Source of the DNA: an uncultured Chloroflexota bacterium | GTDB taxonomy: Bacteria > Chloroflexota > Dehalococcoidia > GIF9 > AB-539-J10 | Direction: 5' to 3' | NCBI GenBank assembly: GCA_903884455.1 | Contig: CAISEW010000003.1 | Span: 1-41,312 of the forward strand | DNA: 41,312 nt | In this document: in pieces, positions 5,100-20,058 of the stretch | How positions within the stretch are numbered: position 1 is the stretch's first letter | Layout: every line of letters begins with the position of its first letter | Translations under genes and position numbers: made by a program | Notes under the pieces: generated by a model | What the model was told of the DNA's origin: nothing | Database searches by the model: none | What the model saw: only the letters and a program-made list of their open reading frames with translations

Positions 5100-5468
5100 G
5101 TGAAAAGGAGGTGGAAAATCAATCCCATAGTCAAGTTGGGGCCAGGTGTAAGCCAGGCCATCAGATCATTTCTAGCTGATAAAGGTATCCAGCAGTCTAT
5201 TCGCATTGATCTCTATTTTAGCGGATGCTGTGATTCGTCACTATACCTATGCGTGGACACTATCTTTGAGACCGATTTGACCTTGGAATTAGATGGCCTG
5301 ACATTCGTTATTAATCCCGAGATTTATCAAGTTGTGGGTGAAGTAACCATCTCCTATGTGGATGAAATGGGGAGGAAAGGATTTGTGCTCACATCAAGCA
5401 AACCTGTAGGCGAGTGGGATGGTTTCGGTGTCAGCGACATCAAAATTCAGCCTAACCTTTACGTATAA
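5100..5468 (+). CDS. Degenerate HesB/IscA-like small protein
   Basis: The 122-residue product resembles the A-type iron-sulfur carrier fold. The order is a short N-terminal helix, a beta strand with SGCCDSS (matching the GGCxG region of IscA), the LDGLTFVINP strand (matching the VDGVxVVVDP strand), and a strand with SYVDEMGRKGFVLT. The C-terminal CGC pair that IscA uses for cluster or iron binding is missing, so ordinary cluster transfer is doubtful. The start is unclear: a GTG at 5100 is the only usual start codon, but the strong Shine-Dalgarno-like AAGGAGG lies inside the first codons (about 5104-5111). No ATG follows it in frame, so the true start may be a rare codon just downstream. It precedes the dehydrogenase fusion gene by 87 bases. 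Fold assignment is moderate. Confidence 0.65.
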   Translation: MKRRWKINPIVKLGPGVSQAIRSFLADKGIQQSIRIDLYFSGCCDSSLYLCVDTIFETDLTLELDGLTFVINPEIYQVVGEVTISYVDEMGRKGFVLTSSKPVGEWDGFGVSDIKIQPNLYV

Positions 5469-5555
5469 ACGTGCGGATTTTACAGTATGTGACCATATAT
5501 TTGTAAGCGTATGATATTACGCTGTCATTTTGAAATATATTAAAGGAGGGAGCTG

Positions 5556-8216
5556 ATGGAACAATATAAACTGTTTATCAATGGCGAGTTCGTAGATGCT
5601 GACAGTGGAAAAACGTTCGAGACGATTGACCCCGGCACTGAGGCACCCATAGCCACAGTAGCCCAAGCAGGAAAGGCTGACGCAGAAAAGGCCATAGCGG
5701 CGGCACGTAAGGCTTTCGACAGAGGGGATTGGAGCGGTCTTACCCCGGCAGCCCGTGCCGCCAAAGTCCAGGATTTTGCCGACCAGATAACACGGCAGGG
5801 TCTGCGCCTAGCTTTCACTGAATCGATGAACTCCGGCCAGGTCATATCACTGGCCAGGTTCATGCCTTTAATCAGTGTCACTTTATTACGCAATTTAAGC
5901 CTGGCGGCAGTCACAAAATTTCCTTGGGAGGAGGAAATACCAGTCTCAGGAAACGCTTTTGCGCCGGGCCGTGAATTCATCCGCAGGGAACCGGTTGGGG
6001 TATGTGTAGGAATTTCTCCCTGGAATTACCCTATGTATATAGCCTGCTGGAAGATCGCTCCCGCTCTCCTAATGGGGAACACTATGGTTTTGAAACCGGC
6101 TTCGTATACCCCTCTTACCGCACTCATAGTGGCAGAAGCAGCAAAAGCAGCTGGCATCCCGGATGGAGTATTCAACGTCATCGCTGGCCCAGGAAGGGAG
6201 TTGGGCGAAATTCTCTGCACCCACCCGGATGTAGATAAGATAGCCTTTACCGGCAGCACGGAAGTCGGTCGTGAAATCATGCGGATGGCTGCCGGTACAA
6301 TAAAAAAGGTGACGCTCGAGCTGGGCGGCAAGTCAGCCAATATCATACTCGACGATGCAGATATGGAGCTTGCCGTGGAGGGTGCCCTCTTTAGTAACTT
6401 CTTCCACCAAGGACAGGTTTGTTCCTCGGGTAGTCGTGTATTAGTCTCATCAAAGATTCATGATGAATTCCTCGACAAGATGATAAAGCGGGCTGAATCT
6501 ATCCGTATCGGATACCAGATGGACCAGACCTCTCACATGGGGCCCCTTGTCAGCAAACAGCAATTGGCTACAGTTGAACGCTATGTCAAACTGGGTAAGG
6601 AAGAGGGGGCGGAATTGATCACCGGCGGCAAACGCGTCGAGGTTAAAGGGATCAAAGGTGGGTTCTACTATGCTCCCACCATCTTTGCGAATGTGAACAA
6701 CAAGATGCGTATCGCGCAGGAGGAGATATTTGGCCCTGTTCTTTGCATCATAAAATACGATAGTGATGAAGAAGCGATTGCCATTGCTAATGATTCCGTG
6801 TACGGCCTGGCAGGTGGTGTATTTTCCACTAACACCGCCAGGGCTGAACGTATAGCTCGTGGGGTTCGTACTGGAACAATGTGGATTAACAATTACCACA
6901 TTTTTTCCGATTATTGCCCCTTCGGCGGCTACAAGCAATCTGGCGTCGGCCGCGAATTCGGTCTAGAAAGCCTGCGTGAATATACCCAAATCAAGAGAAT
7001 ACATGTATCCGCAATTGCCGACCATAAGTCGAATATGACCTTCCAAATTATGTCGGACTATAAGAAAGTAGACGGTTTTTCATATAATTGCCCGACTAAT
7101 GTAGTAGCCGGTCATGGGGCTCTGAGCTCAATCTACAAGGCAGTCGCCGATCTTGGCTGCCGCAGGGCTCTTATTCTTACCGACTCAGGAGTCAACAAAG
7201 CAGGGCTTGCCCAATTGGTGAAGGATGCCCTAGTGGATTTCTGTGTGGGCATCTATGACAATATCTCACCGGATCCCGATCTGGAAACAGTGGACGTGGC
7301 CAATGCCGTGGCCCGCGAACTGAAGGCGGACTGCATCGTCAGCGTCGGCGGTGGCAGCGTCATCGATACTGCCAAAGGGGTCTGTGTAACCTTAAAGAAC
7401 GGCGGCAAGATAAACGATTACCTAAACTTCCTGGTGCTTACTGAGCCACAAACCCCACACATCGCCATTCCCACAACAGCAGGGACCGGCAGCGAAGTAA
7501 CAAATATAGCCGTACTCACAAGCAAGGGCGGCGGACGTAAACTCTTCATAATAGACACACGAATCATGCCGAATGTGGCTATTCTGGACCCGCGTTTCAC
7601 CATGACCCTGCCCAAGGATTTAACAGTCACCACTGCCATGGATGCCATGACACATGCCATTGAGGCTATGATGAGCACCCTGGCGAACCAGATTTGCGAC
7701 GGTCTGGCATTACATGCCATACGCCTGATCAACGAGAACCTGCCACTTGTCGTAGCCGATGGTAGCAATGAAAAGGCACGGCTCAGTATGCAGCTAGCAG
7801 CCACCATGGCAGGGTGGGCATTCACCATTGCCCAGGTTGGTCTGGCGCATGGAATGGCACATACTATAGGGACGCTGCACCATGTCCCACACGGGGTAGC
7901 CTGCGGCATCGTATTACCTAAGGTGATGCGTTACAATGTTGACCATGCTGCTGACAAGCTGGCTCTGGTAGCACAGGCTCTGGGCATCAACACCGCCGGC
8001 ATGAAAGAACATGATGTCGCCCTGGCAGCAGCAGACGCAGTAGAATCCCTGATGAAAAAGGTGGGCCATCCGATGAGACTGCGCGACGTGGGCGTTCCGG
8101 AAGAAAACCTTGCAATATGCGCATTTCATGCGATTGCCGATACGGCTGTCATCTTCAATGGGCGCCCTGTCAGTGATCCAAACGAAGTTTTACAAATTTA
8201 TAGGCAGGCTTATTAG
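5556..8216 (+). CDS. Fusion of non-acylating aldehyde dehydrogenase and iron-type alcohol dehydrogenase
   Basis: The 886-residue protein joins two oxidoreductases. Residues 1 to about 485 form a classical NAD(P)-dependent aldehyde dehydrogenase: PWNYP 155-159, cofactor-region Lys180, FTGSTEVG 231-238, general-base Glu255 in LELGG, catalytic Cys289 in GQVCS, and EEIFGPV 389-395. Residues about 500-886 form a group III, iron-containing alcohol dehydrogenase: GGGSVIDTAK 598-607, GTGSE 643-647 and metal ligands Asp696, His700, His765 and His779, in the spacing of FucO. The order is that of AdhE, but AdhE carries an acylating aldehyde dehydrogenase. The predicted chain is therefore alcohol to aldehyde to free acid, without CoA. 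The ribosome site AAAGGAGGG is well placed before the ATG. Both domains look intact. The substrate is unknown. Confidence 0.92.
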   Translation: MEQYKLFINGEFVDADSGKTFETIDPGTEAPIATVAQAGKADAEKAIAAARKAFDRGDWSGLTPAARAAKVQDFADQITRQGLRLAFTESMNSGQVISLARFMPLISVTLLRNLSLAAVTKFPWEEEIPVSGNAFAPGREFIRREPVGVCVGISPWNYPMYIACWKIAPALLMGNTMVLKPASYTPLTALIVAEAAKAAGIPDGVFNVIAGPGRELGEILCTHPDVDKIAFTGSTEVGREIMRMAAGTIKKVTLELGGKSANIILDDADMELAVEGALFSNFFHQGQVCSSGSRVLVSSKIHDEFLDKMIKRAESIRIGYQMDQTSHMGPLVSKQQLATVERYVKLGKEEGAELITGGKRVEVKGIKGGFYYAPTIFANVNNKMRIAQEEIFGPVLCIIKYDSDEEAIAIANDSVYGLAGGVFSTNTARAERIARGVRTGTMWINNYHIFSDYCPFGGYKQSGVGREFGLESLREYTQIKRIHVSAIADHKSNMTFQIMSDYKKVDGFSYNCPTNVVAGHGALSSIYKAVADLGCRRALILTDSGVNKAGLAQLVKDALVDFCVGIYDNISPDPDLETVDVANAVARELKADCIVSVGGGSVIDTAKGVCVTLKNGGKINDYLNFLVLTEPQTPHIAIPTTAGTGSEVTNIAVLTSKGGGRKLFIIDTRIMPNVAILDPRFTMTLPKDLTVTTAMDAMTHAIEAMMSTLANQICDGLALHAIRLINENLPLVVADGSNEKARLSMQLAATMAGWAFTIAQVGLAHGMAHTIGTLHHVPHGVACGIVLPKVMRYNVDHAADKLALVAQALGINTAGMKEHDVALAAADAVESLMKKVGHPMRLRDVGVPEENLAICAFHAIADTAVIFNGRPVSDPNEVLQIYRQAY

Positions 8217-11691: not shown

Positions 11692-11721
11692 TTGGATTTC
11701 GCCTTGGAATGTGAGCCGCCT

Positions 11722-13185
11722 ATGACTGGGGAAAAATTCCACGCGCTGTTTAATGCACGTTCCATAGCTTTTCTGGGCGCTTCCAAAGACCCCAGAAAGT
11801 GGGGGTTCACCATGCTAAATAACGTGATAAATGGTGGATTTAAGGGGAGGATCTATCCGGTAAACCCTAATGAAGACGAGATACTGGGACTTAAGGTATA
11901 CAAAAGCATTGCCGATATTCCGGAAATACCTGATCTGGCGGTCATTGCAGTGCCGCCTATGAACGTGCTTCAGGTAGTTAAAGAATGTGTCAAAAGAGGG
12001 GTAAGGGCGGGAATAGTCATAACTGCTGGATTTGCCGAGCTTGGGGAGAGTGGAGCACGGCTTGAACAGGAGCTGATCGAGGTAGCCCGTACTGGTGAAA
12101 TGGTCTTGGTGGGGCCAAACTGCAATGGAATAATGAACCCTTGGGAGAAGCTCTATATTCAATTCCCACCTTTCTTCGTTCCACCTGGCCCCATAGCCGT
12201 TATCGCCCAAAGCGGTAATGTGGTTGATTCCTTAGCACGTCAAATCATGTTGCGGGGCTTCGGCTGCAGCATATGTATAAGCAGCGGTAATGAGGCCGAC
12301 CTACACAGCGAAGACTATCTGGAGTACCTGGCGGAAGATCCCCACACTAAAGTCATTTTGAGCTACATCGAAGGTTTTAAGGACGGCAAACGATTTTTCC
12401 GGGTAGCCAGGGAGGTTAGCCAAAAGAAGCCCATTGTCATGGTCAAGGCAGGAAGAACGTCAGCCGGGGCCAAGGCTGCCCTATCACACACCGCGTCTAT
12501 CGCTGGGGCGGATGCCGTCTTCGAAGCTGTATGCAAACAATCTGGGATGGTAAGGGCAAAGAGTTTGGATGATTTGTTGAACGTTGGCATAGCCTTTCTT
12601 CGGCAACCTCTACCCAAGGGCATGAGAGTAGGCATAGTGACCGCTGGTGGAGGCGCAGGGGTCCTCGCCGCCGATGCATGCGCCGAACTGGGCCTTGAGG
12701 TGGTCTCCTTACCTAAGGTGACCATTAAGGAGCTGGATAGTTTCATGCCTGCGTGGTGGAATCGAAATAATCCGGTTGACTTGGTGGCTGGCGGTTCGAC
12801 AGATACAAGTTTTAAAGCCGTTGAAACGGTGTTGCGCTGTCCATCAGTGGATGGGGTTATTATGATGAGTATAATGCCTGCTTTGCGTTTGGAAAGGCTC
12901 TCTGCATCCGCTGATGAAGCTGATAGACAGCGTTGGGCAAATAACTTGGTCCGAGCGGTAGTCAGTGTCATAGAAAGATTCACTAATCTGGCCGATAGAT
13001 ATCAAAAGCCTGTTATTGTTGCATCTGAGCAAATGTTTGCTGACGCCATCCAGGAGACCAAGATCATCTATGCTCTGGGACGGCAAAACCTTATGTGCTA
13101 TCACATGCCCCACCAAGCAGCTGTGGTGCTCTCTGGCTTAGCTAGTTATAGAGAGTATCTGGAGCGTTATGGAAAGCATGAATAA
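11722..13185 (+). CDS. NDP-forming acyl-CoA synthetase, alpha-subunit type
   Basis: The 487-residue protein has the layout of the alpha part of ADP-forming acetyl/acyl-CoA synthetases: an N-terminal CoA-binding Rossmann domain (NARSIAFLGASKDPRKWG), a succinyl-CoA synthetase-like ligase domain with GPNCNG at 131-136 and IAQSGN, and His256 in LSHTASIAG as the likely phosphohistidine. A third domain follows, with TAGGGAGVLAAD. The ATP-grasp beta part is absent and no separate beta gene is nearby, so the protein would need a partner from elsewhere. Known enzymes make acyl-CoA from acid, CoA and ATP, or run in reverse. The ATG at 11722 matches the usual beginning; a TTG at 11692 is a less likely alternative. 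It could activate the acid made by the fusion dehydrogenase (inference). Confidence 0.85.
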   Translation: MTGEKFHALFNARSIAFLGASKDPRKWGFTMLNNVINGGFKGRIYPVNPNEDEILGLKVYKSIADIPEIPDLAVIAVPPMNVLQVVKECVKRGVRAGIVITAGFAELGESGARLEQELIEVARTGEMVLVGPNCNGIMNPWEKLYIQFPPFFVPPGPIAVIAQSGNVVDSLARQIMLRGFGCSICISSGNEADLHSEDYLEYLAEDPHTKVILSYIEGFKDGKRFFRVAREVSQKKPIVMVKAGRTSAGAKAALSHTASIAGADAVFEAVCKQSGMVRAKSLDDLLNVGIAFLRQPLPKGMRVGIVTAGGGAGVLAADACAELGLEVVSLPKVTIKELDSFMPAWWNRNNPVDLVAGGSTDTSFKAVETVLRCPSVDGVIMMSIMPALRLERLSASADEADRQRWANNLVRAVVSVIERFTNLADRYQKPVIVASEQMFADAIQETKIIYALGRQNLMCYHMPHQAAVVLSGLASYREYLERYGKHE

Positions 13186-13241
13186 CCCTTAATCAGGTAT
13201 TATGCTCTCGGAATACCACTTCATTTTACTGTTGCACAAAG

Positions 13242-13353
13242 TAGCGTTTGGTATAATTTCAACCGTCCGCACAAATCCCTGAGCTATCCTGTCCCCGTAG
13301 AGTATATTGGAGGGGAGCTTGCTGAACTATACTGCCCAGTGCAGCCTGTGTGG
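13242..13353 (+). repeat. Possible degenerate relative of the dispersed repeat
   Basis: TAGCGTTTGGTATAATTTC (13242-13260) aligns with the left end of copies A and B (TAGCGGTTTGTACAATTTC in copy A). Further on, GAGCTTGCTGAACTATACTGCC resembles the GAGGCTGCTATACTTAGC hairpin part. The similarity is patchy. A TATAAT at 13252-13257 lies in it. Confidence 0.3.
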
Positions 13354-13370
13354 TCAGCCAGGACACGTTG

Positions 13371-13399
13371 TTGACGAAAACTCTCCCTGATGATATAGT
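13371..13399 (+). promoter_or_regulatory. Predicted promoter of the TetR-thiolase operon
   Basis: TTGACG (13371-13376) and TATAGT (13394-13399) are 17 bases apart, close to the sigma70 consensus. Transcription would start near 13406, just upstream of the palindrome at 13415, so a repressor bound there would block initiation or early elongation. Confidence 0.65.
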
Positions 13400-13414
13400 G
13401 GAGCCATATTTGTA

Positions 13415-13434
13415 GATTGAATGTTCGTTCAATC
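13415..13434 (+). promoter_or_regulatory. Palindromic operator, likely bound by the TetR regulator
   Basis: GATTGAATGTTCGTTCAATC is an inverted repeat with perfect seven-base arms (GATTGAA/TTCAATC) around a six-base centre. Size, symmetry and place, between the predicted promoter and the TetR start codon, fit the autoregulatory operators of the TetR family. The assignment to this regulator is inferred. Confidence 0.6.
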
Positions 13435-13447
13435 AGCCGGGTGAGAA

Positions 13448-14119
13448 TTGTCTGAAGAGTTCACAATACGCACCTTTAGTAGTGACGAGGCTTTAGTCAA
13501 AGAGCGCAGAAATCATATAGTTCGCTGCTCTACAAAAGTATTTACTAAGAAAGGATATGACCGAACCAATATGCGTGAGTTGGCTAAAGCTTGCGAGATG
13601 AGTGCCGGCGCGCTGTATCACTATTTTGGTTCTAAAGAAGAGATGCTCTATTCGATTATCAATAGTGCTACGTCACAACAGGCGGGTTCCATGGAAGATT
13701 ATGCCAATGAGTTGGCAACAGCGAGCCCAACACTAGCTCTTGTAGGGCTTATGAGAAAATTTTATGAATGGCATGACGACAATCAAGATATTACTCTATT
13801 TGCATATCAGGAAACGAAAAACCTGCCAGGCAATGCCCAAGAAAGTATTTTCGACTCCGAAGCGCGTATATTAACTGTATTTGAGAAGTTGCTGATAAAA
13901 GGTATGGAAGAGGGTGAGTTTAATATTGATGATCCCAGGTTGATTGCTCATGATATAGTCGTTCTTGGGCATGCCTGGGCCCTCAGGCGTTGGCATCTGA
14001 GAAAACACTGGACTTTCAAAACATATGTAAAGAAACAGACCGATGCTATGTTAAGGGCGATTACGATAGATAATAACACTGATGTTGCCAATAAACAGAG
14101 AAAGGAGTCGTCCAAGTGA
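13448..14119 (+). CDS. TetR/AcrR family transcriptional regulator
   Basis: The 223-residue protein has a TetR-type helix-turn-helix at about residues 20-70. It reads RRNHIVRCSTKVFTKKGYD, then TNMRELAKACEMSAGALYHY followed by FGSKEEML. The ligand-binding C-terminal domain is helical; in this subfamily it often senses acyl-CoA or related compounds, which would suit its neighbours (inference). TTG at 13448 is the only suitable start, with GGGTGAG just before it. The last codons overlap the start of the thiolase-like gene (GTGA), so the regulator is made in step with the enzymes it probably controls. A strong promoter and a palindromic operator precede it, which suggests autorepression of the whole operon. 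Confidence 0.85.
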   Translation: MSEEFTIRTFSSDEALVKERRNHIVRCSTKVFTKKGYDRTNMRELAKACEMSAGALYHYFGSKEEMLYSIINSATSQQAGSMEDYANELATASPTLALVGLMRKFYEWHDDNQDITLFAYQETKNLPGNAQESIFDSEARILTVFEKLLIKGMEEGEFNIDDPRLIAHDIVVLGHAWALRRWHLRKHWTFKTYVKKQTDAMLRAITIDNNTDVANKQRKESSK

Positions 14120-15486
14120 TTATTTTGAAGAAAGGAAATTTGCGCATTCCCAAATGGAACAGAAAGGTATTTGCAGTTGCTGGGGGTCTGACAAATTATA
14201 AAAAGTTTTGCCCGGAAATGAAGCTTGAAGAGCAAGTGATGGTGGCATTCCGGCAGATGTTGGAGAATAATGATTTAAAGATCTCTCCGGCAGAAATCAA
14301 GGGATTAGTCAACTTTCTGGCCTGCGGTAATTTTTCCGACCACTTTCAAGACCAGCTCCTGTGCGAAGCCAAGGTCACTGACTACCTCGGCCTTGATCCC
14401 ATGTACGATATAGGTATCAAGACGGGCGGGGCTACCGGTGGCTCCACAGTGCTAACAGCCGCTATGGCGATAGCCAGTGGATATGCTGATGTGGCGTTAG
14501 CAGTAGGCTGGGAGCGCATGTCTGAAGTGGATACGCGAACAGGTAACTACTACATTGCTAACGCAGCCTGTAAAGACTTTGAGACCAGGCTTTCCCGCAT
14601 TTATGCTGCCTACTATGCTCCTATGGCCGTCCGTTTCGCCTGGGCCTACAACCTCTCTGAGGAGACTAGAGCCAAGGTGGCAGTCAAGAATCATCTCTAC
14701 GCCTATTACTCGCCATATTCCCAGCAGCCAGGCAAGTACACAATTCAGGATGTCCTTAACAGCCCAATGTCAACCTACCCGTTACGTTTCTTGGAATGTT
14801 GTGCCATGACAGATGGTGCTGCCTGCATGCTACTTTGCGATGAAAAAACTGCCTATAAGTTAACCGATAAACCTTGCGAGCTTTTCATAGCCGGCGGGAG
14901 CCATACCTTGAGGGTGGCAGACCGTAGGGACATGGAGATCCCGTTACTGCCACATGAGACTCCTGATATGTATAAGGGCCTGCGCAAAAAAGAGGGGCAG
15001 CGGTGGCCGGGATTTGAAAGCTTTGCTGCGGCACGATTTGCCGCTTATTTTGCTTACCGAATGGCCGGCGTTACTAACCCGCTTGAAGAGCTTGACCTGG
15101 TGGAGTTGCATGATGCATTTACCATAAGTGACATTCAAACTTATGGAGACATTGGACTCCGTCCCTATGGACAGGAACCTGATTACATTGAATCTGGAGA
15201 TGCTTATTTTGGTGGTAAATGTCCATCCAATCTGTCGGGAGGGTTAATAGGCACCATGCATGCCGTAGGAGCAACTGGCATCTTTCAAGGAATCGAGTGC
15301 CTCTGGCAAATACAGGGCAAGTATAATAAGTTTCATGGCGACCCCAAGATTTGGGAGTCTTTTGGCAAGAAAAAGCCCAAAGATTGGAAGAGTCTCCAAG
15401 TACCTAACGCTAAACAGGCAGCCTGGGTATCTCACGCTGGTGTCGGGTCACATGTAACAGTAGGCATTCTCAGGAAGGCTTTCTAA
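14116..15486 (+). CDS. Thiolase-like enzyme lacking the nucleophilic cysteine
   Basis: The 456-residue protein belongs to the SCP2/lipid-transfer branch of the thiolase family. The active-site parts are visible: IKTGGATGG (101-109), LHDAFT with His332, and HAVGATG with His382. Where thiolases of this branch have the nucleophilic Cys (as in EAACASGG), this protein has Gly105. Loss of that Cys is known from Ltp2, a thiolase-fold aldolase that works with a DUF35 partner in steroid side-chain cleavage, so a retro-aldol or other C-C cleavage is as likely as thiolysis. It is followed by a DUF35 gene after 12 bases. The GTG start overlaps the TetR stop and has AAAGGAG eight bases upstream. The substrate is unknown. 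Confidence 0.82.
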   Translation: MIILKKGNLRIPKWNRKVFAVAGGLTNYKKFCPEMKLEEQVMVAFRQMLENNDLKISPAEIKGLVNFLACGNFSDHFQDQLLCEAKVTDYLGLDPMYDIGIKTGGATGGSTVLTAAMAIASGYADVALAVGWERMSEVDTRTGNYYIANAACKDFETRLSRIYAAYYAPMAVRFAWAYNLSEETRAKVAVKNHLYAYYSPYSQQPGKYTIQDVLNSPMSTYPLRFLECCAMTDGAACMLLCDEKTAYKLTDKPCELFIAGGSHTLRVADRRDMEIPLLPHETPDMYKGLRKKEGQRWPGFESFAAARFAAYFAYRMAGVTNPLEELDLVELHDAFTISDIQTYGDIGLRPYGQEPDYIESGDAYFGGKCPSNLSGGLIGTMHAVGATGIFQGIECLWQIQGKYNKFHGDPKIWESFGKKKPKDWKSLQVPNAKQAAWVSHAGVGSHVTVGILRKAF

Positions 15487-15498
15487 AGGAGGGAAACT

Positions 15499-16020
15499 GT
15501 GGCATCAAAAAGCAAGATAACAAAGTATACTGGCAAACCAGCAAAGGTGCTTCAATCCGAACCAGCCATAGTGATAGAGTGGCCGAGGAGTTTGGCCCAC
15601 AGGCATACTTATGGAAAACTTTCCCCGTTCTTCAAAGGTCTGACAGAGGGCAAACTGCTGGCTACGAGATGCATCAATCCTGAATGTGTAGAACACAGGC
15701 TGTGGCTTCCGCCGCGGGCTGACTGCCCCGATTGCAACCAGCCCATGACCTGGGAAGAACTGCCCCAGCCAGTAATTGGCACGGTGCACACCTATGCGCG
15801 TGTGGAGTACGCCGGTGCTGGCATAGAACTCACTACCCCCTATTTCCAGGTTGACGTTGAGTTGCCTGGCGTATGCACTATATTCAAGGGCTATCTGCAA
15901 TACGGAACACCCGAAATAGGCATGAAAGTTAAGGCTTGCTTTCGAACCGAAGACCCTACTAACACAATTCTTGACATGTACTGGATCCCTTTAGCCGATG
16001 ATAAAGCCGCCCGGTTTTGA
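15499..16020 (+). CDS. DUF35 OB-fold protein with rubredoxin-like zinc ribbon
   Basis: The 173-residue protein has an N-terminal helical part, a zinc ribbon with Cys58, Cys63, Cys76 and Cys79, and a C-terminal OB-fold (about residues 90-165: GTVHTYARVEYAG, then VDVELPGVCTIFKGYL). DUF35 proteins form complexes with SCP2-type thiolases or Ltp2-type aldolases and shape CoA-substrate access. The partner here is the gene just upstream. AAAGGAGGG precedes the GTG start. Its presence strengthens the view that the upstream enzyme is a functional two-protein complex and not a decayed thiolase. Confidence 0.85.
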   Translation: MASKSKITKYTGKPAKVLQSEPAIVIEWPRSLAHRHTYGKLSPFFKGLTEGKLLATRCINPECVEHRLWLPPRADCPDCNQPMTWEELPQPVIGTVHTYARVEYAGAGIELTTPYFQVDVELPGVCTIFKGYLQYGTPEIGMKVKACFRTEDPTNTILDMYWIPLADDKAARF

Positions 16021-16079
16021 ACAGGTAATTGGCAGCGAGCTAACTGGCACAAACACTAACAAAACAGGGGAGAGATGGC

Positions 16080-18041
16080 ATGGGCAAGTTACTTTGGGAG
16101 CCGACGGAAGAGCGAAAGAAGAATGCGAACATAACCAGCTTCATGAAGTTCGTTAACAAACGACATAAACAGAGCTTTCGTTCCTATAAAGAGCTTTATG
16201 ACTGGTCCGTAGATAAGATACCGGATTTCTGGGCTGCTGTGTGGGATTTTGTTGGGGTGAAGGTTTCCAAAGGCTACAAGGTAGTGGTTGACGATGTAAC
16301 TAAGATGCCGGGTGCAAAATGGTTTACTGGCGCGAGGCTAAATTTCGCCGAAAATCTACTGAGATACAGGGATAAGAAGACAGCCTTCATCTTCAAAGGA
16401 GAAACTCAGAAGACAGAGAGGATGAGTTACGCTGAACTGTATAAATCTGTGGCACGCCTGGCAGAATCTCTTCGAGAAGTAGGAATCAAGCCTGGAGACC
16501 GGGTGGCTGCCTACATGCCTAATATGATAGGGACGGCTGTGGCGATGCTTGCCAGCACGAGTATCGGCGCTGTCTGGGCTTCGTGTGCCACCGATATCGG
16601 TTCTGGGGCAGCCATTGATCGCTTTGGTCAAATCGAACCAAAAGTTCTGTTTACCGCTGATGGCTATTTCTACAAAGGAAAACCCTTCAATTCTCTCTCT
16701 AACGCTGCTGAAATTGTAAAGGGGGTACCCTCTATTGAGAAAGTCATAGTGGCCCGCTACAGGGAAGAGAAACCCGATATCAGCCATATTCCTAACTCCG
16801 TATATTATGATGATTTTCTATCACGAGAGAAGTCGGAAATTCAATTCGAACAATTGCCCGCAGACCATCCTGTGTTCATCATGTTTTCGTCAGGGACGAC
16901 TGGCAAGCCAAAGTGCATGGTTCAAGGAGCAGCCGGAATTCTGGTTAATCAACTGAAGGAGCTAATAATCCACACCGATTTGAAGCGAGACGATGTCCAT
17001 TTCTTTATCACGACTTGTAGCTGGATGATGTGGAACTGGATGCTGACTTCCTTAGCCACAGGTAACACCATTATTCTGTATGATGGCAACCCCACCTATC
17101 CTAGGCCAGGGGCTATGTGGAAACTGATACAGGATGAAAAAGTGACTATGTTTGGCTGCAGCTCCAGCTACATTAACTATCTCAGGAGTGAAAACATTAG
17201 GCCGGCTAATGATTATGACCTGTCGTCATTAAAGGAAATATGGCAGACTGGTTCGGTTCTATCAGCGGAAGGATTCGAGTACGTGTATCAGGAAGTCAAG
17301 AAAGACCTGCATTTTAATTCCAGTTCAGGTGGCACAGACATCAATGGCTGCTTTTTCACCGGAAGTCCGATTCAGCCTGTATACGCTGGTGAGTTACAGG
17401 GGCCGGGTTTGGGGATGAAGGTGAAAGCGTATGATGAAGAAGGGCATCCGGTATTTGACCAGCAGGGCGAACTCGCCTGTGAAGCCGCTGCCCCGCCTAT
17501 GCCGCTTTATTTCTGGAATGATCTGGACGGTAAGAAGTACAGGGACGCTTATTTTGGTGTTTACCCTGGTGTGTGGCGTCACGGGGACTATATAGTATTT
17601 CATAGTGATACCGGAGGAGCTACTTTCTATGGTCGCTCTGACTCAGTACTGAAACCGTCCGGTGTTCGCATAGGTACGGCCGAAATATATAACGTGATGG
17701 AAGGGCTACTGGAGATTGCTGATAGCCTAGCAATAGGGCAGAGATGGGAGGGAGACCAGCGTGTCCTTCTTTTTGTCAAATTGGCTGAAGGATATCATCT
17801 AACGGAAGACCTGGAGAACAAAATCAAGAGAAATCTTCGTGAGAAAGCTTCCCCAAGACACGTCCCAGCGAGAATCATTGCGGTACCGGATATTCCTTAC
17901 ACCACGAACATGAAGAAGGTCGAAAGCGCTGTCACAAACATAATGCATGGCAGGCCCGTCCTGAACAGGAATGCCTTGTGCAATCCCCAATGCCTGGATT
18001 ACTATGAGAAGCTTATTGGAGAAGGGGTACTCAAATCTTAA
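16080..18041 (+). CDS. Acetoacetyl-CoA synthetase-like acyl-CoA ligase
   Basis: The 653-residue protein is an AMP-forming ligase of the acetoacetyl-CoA synthetase family; the length and the N-terminal ACAS-type segment (MGKLLWEPTEERKKNANI) fit. The phosphate-binding motif SSGTTGKPK is at 270-278. The hinge region reads YGRSDSVLKPSGVRIG and the C-terminal catalytic lysine lies in PYTTNMKKVE. The reaction is acid plus ATP plus CoA to acyl-CoA, AMP and PPi. Acetoacetate or another 3-oxoacid is the expected substrate, and the product would be a natural substrate for a C-C cleaving partner. A GGGGAGAG ribosome site precedes the ATG. It is the third enzyme gene of the TetR-controlled operon. Confidence 0.88.
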   Translation: MGKLLWEPTEERKKNANITSFMKFVNKRHKQSFRSYKELYDWSVDKIPDFWAAVWDFVGVKVSKGYKVVVDDVTKMPGAKWFTGARLNFAENLLRYRDKKTAFIFKGETQKTERMSYAELYKSVARLAESLREVGIKPGDRVAAYMPNMIGTAVAMLASTSIGAVWASCATDIGSGAAIDRFGQIEPKVLFTADGYFYKGKPFNSLSNAAEIVKGVPSIEKVIVARYREEKPDISHIPNSVYYDDFLSREKSEIQFEQLPADHPVFIMFSSGTTGKPKCMVQGAAGILVNQLKELIIHTDLKRDDVHFFITTCSWMMWNWMLTSLATGNTIILYDGNPTYPRPGAMWKLIQDEKVTMFGCSSSYINYLRSENIRPANDYDLSSLKEIWQTGSVLSAEGFEYVYQEVKKDLHFNSSSGGTDINGCFFTGSPIQPVYAGELQGPGLGMKVKAYDEEGHPVFDQQGELACEAAAPPMPLYFWNDLDGKKYRDAYFGVYPGVWRHGDYIVFHSDTGGATFYGRSDSVLKPSGVRIGTAEIYNVMEGLLEIADSLAIGQRWEGDQRVLLFVKLAEGYHLTEDLENKIKRNLREKASPRHVPARIIAVPDIPYTTNMKKVESAVTNIMHGRPVLNRNALCNPQCLDYYEKLIGEGVLKS

Positions 18042-18191
18042 TCTACTCTTATGAGAAACGCGAGGAGCCGAAACATTGAGAGCAATTGGACTCAGTAGCG
18101 ACATTGCTCAAACACAGTTCAAGAAAGCGGGAGCCCTCAGGTACCTTTCTTGTGTATACTGCGCGGAGAGTACCCTTGGGGGAGATGAACC

Positions 18192-19355
18192 ATGGATTTT
18201 GATTTGAGCGAAGAGCAGAATCTAACACGCCAGGCGATTCGGGCTTTCGCTGAAAGGCAGATTGCCCCGATCGCCCGAGAGCTGGACGAAAAGGAGAAGT
18301 TTTCTGCCGAGCTAACGCACAAAATGGCGGACTTAGGGCTGCTGGGTTGCTTTGTTCCAGAGAAATATGGCGGCTCCAATATGGGCTACATCTCGTATGC
18401 AATTGCGGTTGAAGAGCTGGCTAGGGTGGATGCTTCCCAGGCCGCTACTATTGCTGCCGGAAACTCTCTAGGAATTGGCCCCATCTATTATTTCGGTAAC
18501 GAAAAGCAAAAGCAAGAATGGCTTCCCAGGCTCTGTTCGGGAGAGTGCCTAGCTGCATTTGGTCTGACGGAGCCTGATGCTGGCTCCGACGCTGGAAGCT
18601 CTCGAACCACCGCAACACTTGAAGGGGACTACTGGACTATCAATGGGCATAAAATTTTTATCACCAACTCGGCTTGCCCATTGACCGGTGTTATTATTGT
18701 CCAGGCTGTCACTGGTAAACATGAGGATGGCAAACCAGAGATTAGTTGCCTTATCGTTCCGAGCGACACACCTGGCTTGACAGCTAAGGAGATGAAAGAC
18801 AAGATGATGTGGCGAGCATCCAACACGGGTGAACTTTTTTTCGATGATTGTATTGTGCCTGAAGCAAACCTTCTAGGAAAAAGGGGGGACGGCTTCCATC
18901 AAATGCTTGCGACACTGGATGGCGGACGCCTTAGCATCGCCGCCATGGGATTGGGTGGGTCTCAGGCGGCTTTCGAGTTGGCCTTACAATACGCCAATTC
19001 TCGCATCCAATTTGGACGGCCAATCGGTTCCTTTCAAGTTAACGCTTTCAAACTAGCCGACATGGCCCTAGAGATCGAACTGGCCAGGAATCTTCTCTAC
19101 AAGACCTGCTGGCTGCGAGAAAACGGACGTCCCATTACTAAAGAGGCAGCCATGGCAAAATTGTTCTGTTCCGAGGTTATGCGCCGCTGTGTCCATCACG
19201 CAGTGCAACTTCACGGAGGGTACGGGCTGATGAAGGATTATGAAGTCGAGAGATTATATCGGGATCAGAGGATTCTGGAGATCGGCGAGGGAACGTCGGA
19301 AATACTACGCATCGTGATTGCTCGTAACATTGGCGTGTCGGGAAGGGCAATCTAG
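18192..19355 (+). CDS. Acyl-CoA dehydrogenase
   Basis: The 387-residue flavoprotein has the three-domain layout of the family: an N-terminal helical domain (MDFDLSEEQNLTRQAIRAFA), the middle beta domain with AAFGLTEPDAGSDAGSSR and WTINGHKIFITN, and the C-terminal helices with RIQFGRPIGSFQ. Glu366 in IGEGTSEI is at the position of the catalytic base of medium- and short-chain enzymes. It would oxidise a saturated acyl-CoA to the 2-enoyl-CoA, passing electrons to ETF. Neither ETF nor enoyl-CoA hydratase genes are in the window. GGGGGAG lies just before the ATG. The 150-base gap from the ligase gene is longer than elsewhere in the operon and may contain an internal promoter, but I see no clear one. 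Confidence 0.9.
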   Translation: MDFDLSEEQNLTRQAIRAFAERQIAPIARELDEKEKFSAELTHKMADLGLLGCFVPEKYGGSNMGYISYAIAVEELARVDASQAATIAAGNSLGIGPIYYFGNEKQKQEWLPRLCSGECLAAFGLTEPDAGSDAGSSRTTATLEGDYWTINGHKIFITNSACPLTGVIIVQAVTGKHEDGKPEISCLIVPSDTPGLTAKEMKDKMMWRASNTGELFFDDCIVPEANLLGKRGDGFHQMLATLDGGRLSIAAMGLGGSQAAFELALQYANSRIQFGRPIGSFQVNAFKLADMALEIELARNLLYKTCWLRENGRPITKEAAMAKLFCSEVMRRCVHHAVQLHGGYGLMKDYEVERLYRDQRILEIGEGTSEILRIVIARNIGVSGRAI

Positions 19356-19368
19356 AAGGAAGGGCACC

Positions 19369-20058
19369 ATGAAAAAAGAGAAGGCAAAACGCAAGACTTC
19401 TGCCAGAGTGAGTCCGGCTAAGAGTAAAGCGGCGAGGCATGATGATTTTCTCACCGACTCGGCTAACATCGCTCGCATACAAGAGGTAGAGGGGGAAAAA
19501 GAATCTCTGAGCGATCGGCTTCGCAGGGTTCGAGAAATGCGGGGACTTACCATTAGGGACCTCAGTAGCCGAACAGGGATCAATATAGCTACCTTGGAAC
19601 GTATAGAATCAGGCGAAATAATCCCGGCATTAGGGCAGTTAGTTAGGTTAGGCAGAGCGCTTGATATGAAGATGGGCTACTTTATCTCGCCAGGAATTGA
19701 CAAGCTCATGTCCGTGGTGCGCAAGCACGAACGGCGGCCAATATCTCGCTACGGAGAGGCGAAGAGCATCGAGTGCGGTTACTTTTACGAATCCCTGGCC
19801 CCGGAAAAGGCCGACCGATTGATGGAGCCTTTTATTGTGACGCTGGTGCCAACAGACATAGAAGAGTTCTCCGCCCACGCCGGACAGGAGTTTATTTATG
19901 TCCTGGAGGGCGAAATGAAAGTGCAAGTTGGGGATCGCGTCGACCTTCTCAAGCCTGGAGATGCCATTTATTACGACTCTAATCAACCTCACTTCGTTAG
20001 ATGTGCCGGCACCACTGCAACGAAGTTATTGGCTGTTCTTTATACGGGATCACCATAG
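19369..20058 (+). CDS. XRE-family regulator with C-terminal cupin sensor domain
   Basis: From the ATG at 19369 the product has 229 residues. A basic N-terminal tail is followed by an XRE helix-turn-helix (about residues 45-105: LRRVREMRGLTIRDLSSRTG then TLERIESGEIIPALGQLVRL). The C-terminal cupin has HAGQEFIYVLEGEMKVQVGD and LKPGDAIYYDSNQPHFVR. This combination regulates catabolic or sugar genes in many bacteria, with the cupin binding a small ligand. The gene follows the acyl-CoA dehydrogenase by 13 bases, with GAAGGAAGGG in between, so it is a second regulator at the end of the operon. A longer frame starting upstream is rejected because the ribosome site is inside it. Confidence 0.85.
   Translation: MKKEKAKRKTSARVSPAKSKAARHDDFLTDSANIARIQEVEGEKESLSDRLRRVREMRGLTIRDLSSRTGINIATLERIESGEIIPALGQLVRLGRALDMKMGYFISPGIDKLMSVVRKHERRPISRYGEAKSIECGYFYESLAPEKADRLMEPFIVTLVPTDIEEFSAHAGQEFIYVLEGEMKVQVGDRVDLLKPGDAIYYDSNQPHFVRCAGTTATKLLAVLYTGSP

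Follow-up and report, generated by a model that had tools for sequence, protein, structure and literature searches.

The closest described system is BdhE (bifunctional dehydrogenase E), a fusion of an aldehyde dehydrogenase (ALDH) and an alcohol dehydrogenase (ADH) that was named, assayed, and structurally solved by Konno et al. (September 2025, PMC12454647). According to the main text of that paper, 47 BdhE proteins were drawn from GTDB r202 and their fusion is independent of that of AdhE; the enzyme is a ring tetramer, with channelling inferred from a tunnel together with docking. The same account reports Halomonas BdhE to be active with ethanol, acetaldehyde, acetyl-CoA, and choline, with NADH consumed in the presence of acetyl-CoA and formed from ethanol with CoA (200 uM in the ethanol oxidation mixture), more slowly than with AdhE, and proposes that the two enzymes are redundant because 0 of 25,877 species hold both. 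A literature search recognised no second paper on the ALDH-ADH BdhE fusion. The same two-enzyme architecture has evolved twice, and the literature already uses it as a model case for convergence by gene fusion.

A BdhE homologue in a Dehalococcoidia genome

The window, a stretch of 41,312 nucleotides from a Dehalococcoidia-class Chloroflexota genome, carries a gene for an 886-aa protein of this kind, with the following parts:

5556..8216, + strand: bdhE, an 886-aa ALDH-Fe-ADH fusion of the BdhE family (open frame, domains, 9LDL alignment, trees)
5589..6998, + strand: aldehyde dehydrogenase domain, residues 12-481 (Pfam PF00171 Aldedh, 557 bits)
6318..6320, + strand: codon for Glu255 (E in 42/42 BdhE rows, V in 4/4 AdhE, A in 1/1 EutE)
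6420..6422, + strand: codon for Cys289, the catalytic nucleophile (C in 42/42 BdhE rows)
6999..7091, + strand: linker between the domains, residues 482-512 (gap between Pfam domains, gapless against 9LDL)
7092..8213, + strand: iron-type alcohol dehydrogenase domain, residues 513-886 (PF00465, PF25137)
7641..7892, + strand: metal-ligand stretch with Asp696, His700, His765, and His779 (alignment of 42 BdhE rows)

The frame runs uninterrupted from ATG to TAG over 886 codons, and a GGAGG read by eye at 5545-5549 lies 6 nt before the ATG. Pfam divides the C-terminal half into Fe-ADH (513-679) and ADH_Fe_C (690-886) matches, and it bears out the AdhE-like order, ALDH then Fe-ADH in a single chain, that the original prediction had read from the sequence. 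The catalytic residues named there, Cys289 in GQVCS and Glu255 in LELGG along with all four Fe-ADH metal ligands, Asp696, His700, His765, and His779, are present in the product, as are two further residues of the hydrolytic ALDH site, Asn157 and Lys180. The genome as a whole (G000; 1.56 Mb in 63 contigs, 99.5% complete) has one bdhE copy and no AdhE above the NF010378 cut-off.

Aligned with the Halomonas eurihalina BdhE of known structure (9LDL), the window protein matches from residues 1-886 to 1-886 with no gap (1308 bits), at 64.0% identity over the 886 aligned columns (65.9% in the ALDH half and 62.7% in the ADH half); its identity to E. coli AdhE is 29.6%. It has the ALDH-ADH architecture, exceeds 700 aa, is more than 40% identical to known BdhE in both halves, and is monophyletic with BdhE in both domain trees, with AdhE apart. 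Length (886 aa), domain order, linker, clade, and the catalytic residues of ALDH and Fe-ADH are all shared with 9LDL, whereas the host, a Chloroflexota of the class Dehalococcoidia, and an IscA/HesB-like gene upstream set the window member apart from the Halomonas one. These sequence comparisons identify the product as a BdhE, an ALDH-ADH fusion separate from AdhE. The independent fusion that had been proposed for this gene is right but already known, and the gene adds a member to BdhE, bringing an anaerobic-type Chloroflexota lineage to the family.

A Foldseek search with the predicted window model returned 9LDL at the top (E 6.4e-103, 64% identity), followed by the best AdhE chain at 24%. 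The predicted monomer (pLDDT 76.8, pTM 0.57) is of low confidence in its linker and active-site loops, and its domain arrangement does not reproduce that of 9LDL (TM 0.44). Since the model is uncertain between domains and unlike 9LDL in their arrangement, the quaternary structure of the window protein can be drawn by analogy only.

Both halves branch apart from AdhE

Trees were built for each half under LG+I+G4 with ultrafast bootstrap (60 ALDH rows and 72 ADH rows), with the collected single-domain rows as outgroups. The 42 BdhE rows contain one locus twice (L022 = L143) and therefore 41 distinct members including 9LDL and the window; the fusion rows come from 35 other genomes and 9LDL, and three of them (L014, L109, and L110) stop at a contig edge. 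Duplicate loci were left out of the trees, as were the contig-edge or frame-broken copies L010, L011, L016, L019, L100, L111, L120, L121, and L126.

In the ALDH tree the BdhE rows separate from all others with a support of 100; in the ADH tree the support for this split is 84, rising to 100 once the basal row L018 is set aside. 9LDL pairs with L012 within the BdhE clade at a support of 100 in both halves. AdhE and EutE form a clade of their own in the ALDH tree (100), and in the ADH tree AdhE stands as a clade apart (100). A placement of the N-terminal half within the acylating AdhE clade, an outcome named as refuting a separate origin, was looked for and is absent, the AdhE plus EutE clade (100) holding no BdhE. 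The trees of both halves thus agree on an origin separate from AdhE, as already published for BdhE in the main text of PMC12454647. The window protein resembles AdhE in its ALDH-then-Fe-ADH chain and in the metal-ligand pattern of its ADH half, but it lacks the AdhE active-site pattern and both its halves fall in separate clades; with NF010378 scores of 314 and 310.5 bits against a cut-off of 951, membership in AdhE was rejected.

Distribution of the fusion

Scanning other genomes for the same architecture, as had been suggested for this gene, returned fusion frames in many of them, single-frame homologues at 51-83% identity. Among the best 80 matches of a genome-contig scan, fusions occur in Chloroflexota and 'Deltaproteobacteria' MAGs, in an Acidimicrobiaceae MAG (where a contig end truncates the frame), and in a Myxococcales MAG. 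In whole-genome searches, which scored the two best candidates per genome, matches at E <= 1e-150 were found in 13/393 genomes of the window's class, in 2/400 drawn from its phylum, and in 24/389 of the class of G750, a Desulfobacteraceae MAG; the last 24 include contig-edge pieces, an unfused pair (G947), and a truncated copy (G757). Within the window's genus BdhE is present in 2 of 13 sampled genomes, which indicates frequent gain or loss. Two copies each are carried by G751, G758, G747, G753, G817, G769, and G876. Several bdhE copies have a stop, a frame break, or a truncation (L010:9687-9689, L011, L016, L167, L019/L169), reflecting either MAG error or decay.

The other outcome named against the original prediction, that bdhE is an assembly artefact linking two neighbouring genes, can be put aside as vanishingly unlikely. 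Unfused ALDH and ADH neighbours do exist elsewhere (L021, L136), but the single frame recurs, linker included, in many other genomes, and the homologue 9LDL was produced as a single chain and its structure determined in that form.

A third fusion family was sought among the distant full-length matches, none of which is a new fusion. L020, L023, L024, L028, L030, and L031 have separate frames with the ADH ahead of the ALDH, L021 has an unfused ALDH, an SCP2-like gene, and an ADH, and L136:5473-8280 (- strand; G947) is an unfused tandem of ALDH and Fe-ADH, whose in-register frames are separated by one TAA. The ADH of L136 belongs to another subfamily, grouping with L046 at a support of 97. In L021:8001-11099, from a Spirochaetales MAG, ALDH, SCP2-like gene, and Fe-ADH stand in fusion order and both halves branch close to the BdhE base; this arrangement is possibly a relic of a pre-fusion operon.

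The aldehyde dehydrogenase active site

In classical ALDHs a Glu acts as the general base, activating the water that releases the acid. Asn, Lys, Glu, and Cys at positions 157, 180, 255, and 289, which we take to be the active-site residues of hydrolytic ALDHs, are each present in 42/42 BdhE rows of the alignment, whereas the AdhE/EutE rows share the Cys only, with Thr at the first of these positions, Ser or Ala at the second, and Val or Ala at the third. The claim that the N-terminal half has a non-acylating active site holds across the family at the level of these residues, and the pattern supports placing the ALDH half among putative hydrolytic (non-acylating) ALDHs.

The best NCBIfam model for this half is BADH (TIGR01804), at 562.7 bits. 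The half is like betaine aldehyde dehydrogenase/ALDH2-type hydrolytic ALDHs in fold and catalytic residues, with about 40% identity to E. coli BetB (40.4%), and it differs from them in its fusion to an ADH, in extra columns at residues 123-124 and 133-135, and in carrying Ser or Thr in place of a BetB Glu. The extra columns, candidate counterparts of the elongated interface loops by which BdhE is characterised, are BdhE-specific and common to 9LDL, but the unfused ALDH of L021 is partly extended there too. All 42 BdhE rows have either Ser (28) or Thr (14) at the position of the E. coli BetB Glu; such a replacement is presumably linked to a looser choice between NAD and NADP, and suggests that this choice may be loosened in BdhE.

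The kinship with BADH raises the possibility that BdhE naturally acts on choline or another amino-alcohol, and that it would serve choline-to-betaine osmoprotection in one protein, as BetA/BetB or GbsB/GbsA do in two. The ALDH half does score highest with betaine aldehyde dehydrogenase models, and choline was oxidised by Halomonas BdhE in the main text of PMC12454647. We nevertheless regard this as quite improbable: the BADH score lies under the equivalog cut-off of 668.6, the Trp-Gly of the BetB INTWG segment is replaced in BdhE by Tyr (38 rows) or Phe (4) followed by His (42/42), none of the 20 proteins of the window that were run against Pfam (from 60 frames of >=100 aa) could be recognised as a choline transporter or a bet product, and the same main text describes AdhE as likewise active on choline.

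The alcohol dehydrogenase metal site

His700 and His765 are conserved in 42/42 BdhE rows and Asp696 and His779 in 41/42 each, the sole exception to both being L139. L139:4343-7000 is a full-length BdhE frame whose ADH half has Ala for Asp696 and Tyr for His779, and a separate Fe-ADH and an aldehyde:ferredoxin oxidoreductase (AOR)-like gene lie upstream of the fusion. Given two lost metal ligands and these two separate genes, the ALDH half may act alone in L139.

The closest single-domain relatives found for the C-terminal half, at 47-49% identity, are SCP2-linked Fe-ADHs of Syntrophales and relatives (L025, L026, L027, L029, and the second ADH of L016; L029 is outside the tree). In the ADH tree the nearest single-domain sequences are those of L025-L027 and L016 together with the L021 ADH. 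These single-domain enzymes stand alone and adjoin an SCP2-like gene, whereas the ADH half of the window protein is fused.

Alcohol-to-carboxylate oxidation or an AdhE-like reaction

We give a probability of roughly 0.7 to a reading of BdhE as a bifunctional enzyme separate from AdhE, which would interconvert alcohol and aldehyde through its Fe-ADH half, form carboxylate through a hydrolytic ALDH half, and probably transfer the aldehyde within a ring tetramer. Using NAD(P)H, the Fe-ADH half would interconvert alcohol and aldehyde. The ALDH half, of a betaine-aldehyde-dehydrogenase-like hydrolytic type to judge from the conserved residues, would then convert aldehyde to carboxylate by forming a thiohemiacetal on Cys289, passing a hydride to NAD(P)+, and hydrolysing the product with Glu255 as the general base. 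By analogy with the Halomonas protein at 64% identity, the aldehyde is probably passed between the ALDH and ADH domains of neighbouring chains of the ring. An alcohol-to-carboxylate function is plausible for the window BdhE from its residues, with small alcohols or aldehydes most likely being oxidised in what would be an anaerobic sediment-type bacterium.

The published reading is an AdhE-like one, in which the ALDH half is CoA-acylating and BdhE would interconvert acetyl-CoA and ethanol in fermentation. Its evidence in PMC12454647 is the use of NADH with acetyl-CoA and the formation of NADH from ethanol plus CoA; a Halomonas BdhE that reduces acetyl-CoA with NADH, and whose ethanol assay contained CoA, would be acylating like AdhE. 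To this is added the finding of no species with both enzymes. Against it, the Glu, Asn, and Lys that are missing from the AdhE/EutE rows are kept throughout BdhE, and the main text of PMC12454647 describes neither a CoA-free control or assay nor acetate as an identified product: that main text nowhere uses the terms 'no CoA', 'absence of CoA', or 'hydrolysis', and 'acetate' there refers to the uranyl stain. The exclusion argument is also weak in the classes sampled here, and overall we hold the acylating reading to be unlikely.

AdhE above the cut-off was found in 0/314 genomes of the window's class and in 1/389 of the class of G750, the two best candidates per genome being scored in both searches. 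Because AdhE is nearly absent from both classes, its rarity alone would leave the two enzymes without overlap, and the exclusion is uninformative in either; where AdhE hardly occurs, its absence from BdhE genomes has little bearing on redundancy. The sole genome with AdhE, the Desulfobacteraceae MAG G750 (locus L012), also has BdhE, with AdhE on contig C499 (1405 bits) and BdhE on contig C309, and it is an apparent exception to the published exclusion in which contamination is possible. Returning to the alcohol-to-carboxylate reading, the residues of the ALDH half raise the question of whether BdhE really makes acyl-CoA despite an active site of the hydrolytic type.

An IscA/HesB-like neighbour

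Gene neighbourhoods were compared across 46 bdhE loci, a set without the duplicates L168, L142, and L019 and with L165, L166, and L170 standing in for L005, L007, and L017. The set includes broken and contig-edge copies, with flanks from almost none to 8 kb per side, so that all counts from it are lower bounds. One neighbour of the window gene recurs:

5100..5468, + strand: IscA/HesB-like gene, 122 aa, with a GCCD motif (conserved adjacency, NF038090, predicted fold)

This gene ends 87 bp upstream of bdhE. Counterparts adjoin bdhE in 13 of the 46 loci, window included, lying upstream in eight (the window, L002, L004, L006, L011, L163, L165, and L167) and downstream in five (L013, L143, L144, L157, and L164). 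Examples of the IscA/HesB fold with the GCCD motif are L004:2529-2873, L013:10759-11088, and L144:7457-7828, on either side of bdhE depending on lineage. When 28 bdhE genomes were searched in full with an alignment of the IscA/HesB-like proteins, 15 matches fell below E 1e-25, 13 of them beside bdhE; the two unlinked ones are on other contigs in G739, the genome of L001, and in G246, where bdhE runs into a contig end. Against a strict linkage, no IscA/HesB-like gene was detected in 33 of the 46 bdhE loci, and L141 (G199), from the window's own genus, carries bdhE but not this gene.

The upstream gene scores below the cut-off with NF038090 (IscA/HesB; E 1.3e-14), and a Pfam search of its product gave no match. 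Its best predicted model (pLDDT 81.6, the other four at 44-66) was matched by Foldseek to IscA 1r94 (E 5.4e-7), and the predicted fold matches that of an A-type Fe-S carrier. A-type Fe-S carriers have three conserved Cys, including a C-terminal Cys-x-Cys. Across seven IscA/HesB-like sequences the invariant Cys are C43 and C44 alone, and an invariant C-terminal Cys is absent, so the three-Cys pattern of IscA/SufA is lacking. A role as a partner gene of bdhE is possible, and service to the iron of the ADH site is a guess; whether the linked protein does serve that site is the second question raised by these comparisons. The word HesB is absent from the main text of PMC12454647.

A wider proposal is that much of the BdhE family consists of non-acylating alcohol-to-carboxylate oxidases with a dedicated adjacent Cys-Cys partner of the IscA/HesB fold, which would load or protect the iron of the ADH site. 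We put this forward tentatively and consider it rather unlikely; if it is true, the published view of BdhE as a stand-in for AdhE needs correcting.

Other neighbouring genes

The remaining flanks of the window gene hold a ZupT-type transporter, ABC-2 transporter genes, a zinc-ribbon protein, and SpoIIM-like and UbiA-like genes, and the nearest acyl-CoA genes begin about 3.5 kb downstream of bdhE:

11692-20058, + strand: acyl-CoA cluster, comprising ADP-forming acetate-CoA ligase alpha-like, TetR, thiolase, OB-fold (weak match), acetoacetyl-CoA ligase, acyl-CoA dehydrogenase, HTH-cupin regulator

No AOR, SCP2, or second ADH gene stands beside bdhE in the window. With no adjacent AOR and with acyl-CoA genes at that distance, the window context says little about substrate or product.

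Across the 46 loci, AOR and SCP2-like genes were sought with profiles from one and four sequences, respectively, at E <= 1e-5. AOR-like genes lie near bdhE in 7/46 loci, which fits aldehyde/carboxylate metabolism, and five of these seven (L001, L004, L016, L139, and L163) also have an SCP2-like gene and a second Fe-ADH; the SCP2 Pfam match is above the cut-off for L021 and below it for L001. Clusters of SCP2-like, Fe-ADH, and AOR-like genes beside bdhE span L139:256-3795, L004:6228-9730, L163:11881-15384, and L016:2873-6452. In L011 a frame at 5736-7562, with a Fe-ADH match and also with 4Fe-4S ferredoxin-like Cys motifs recognised by eye, lies upstream of bdhE between the AOR-like gene and the IscA/HesB-like gene.
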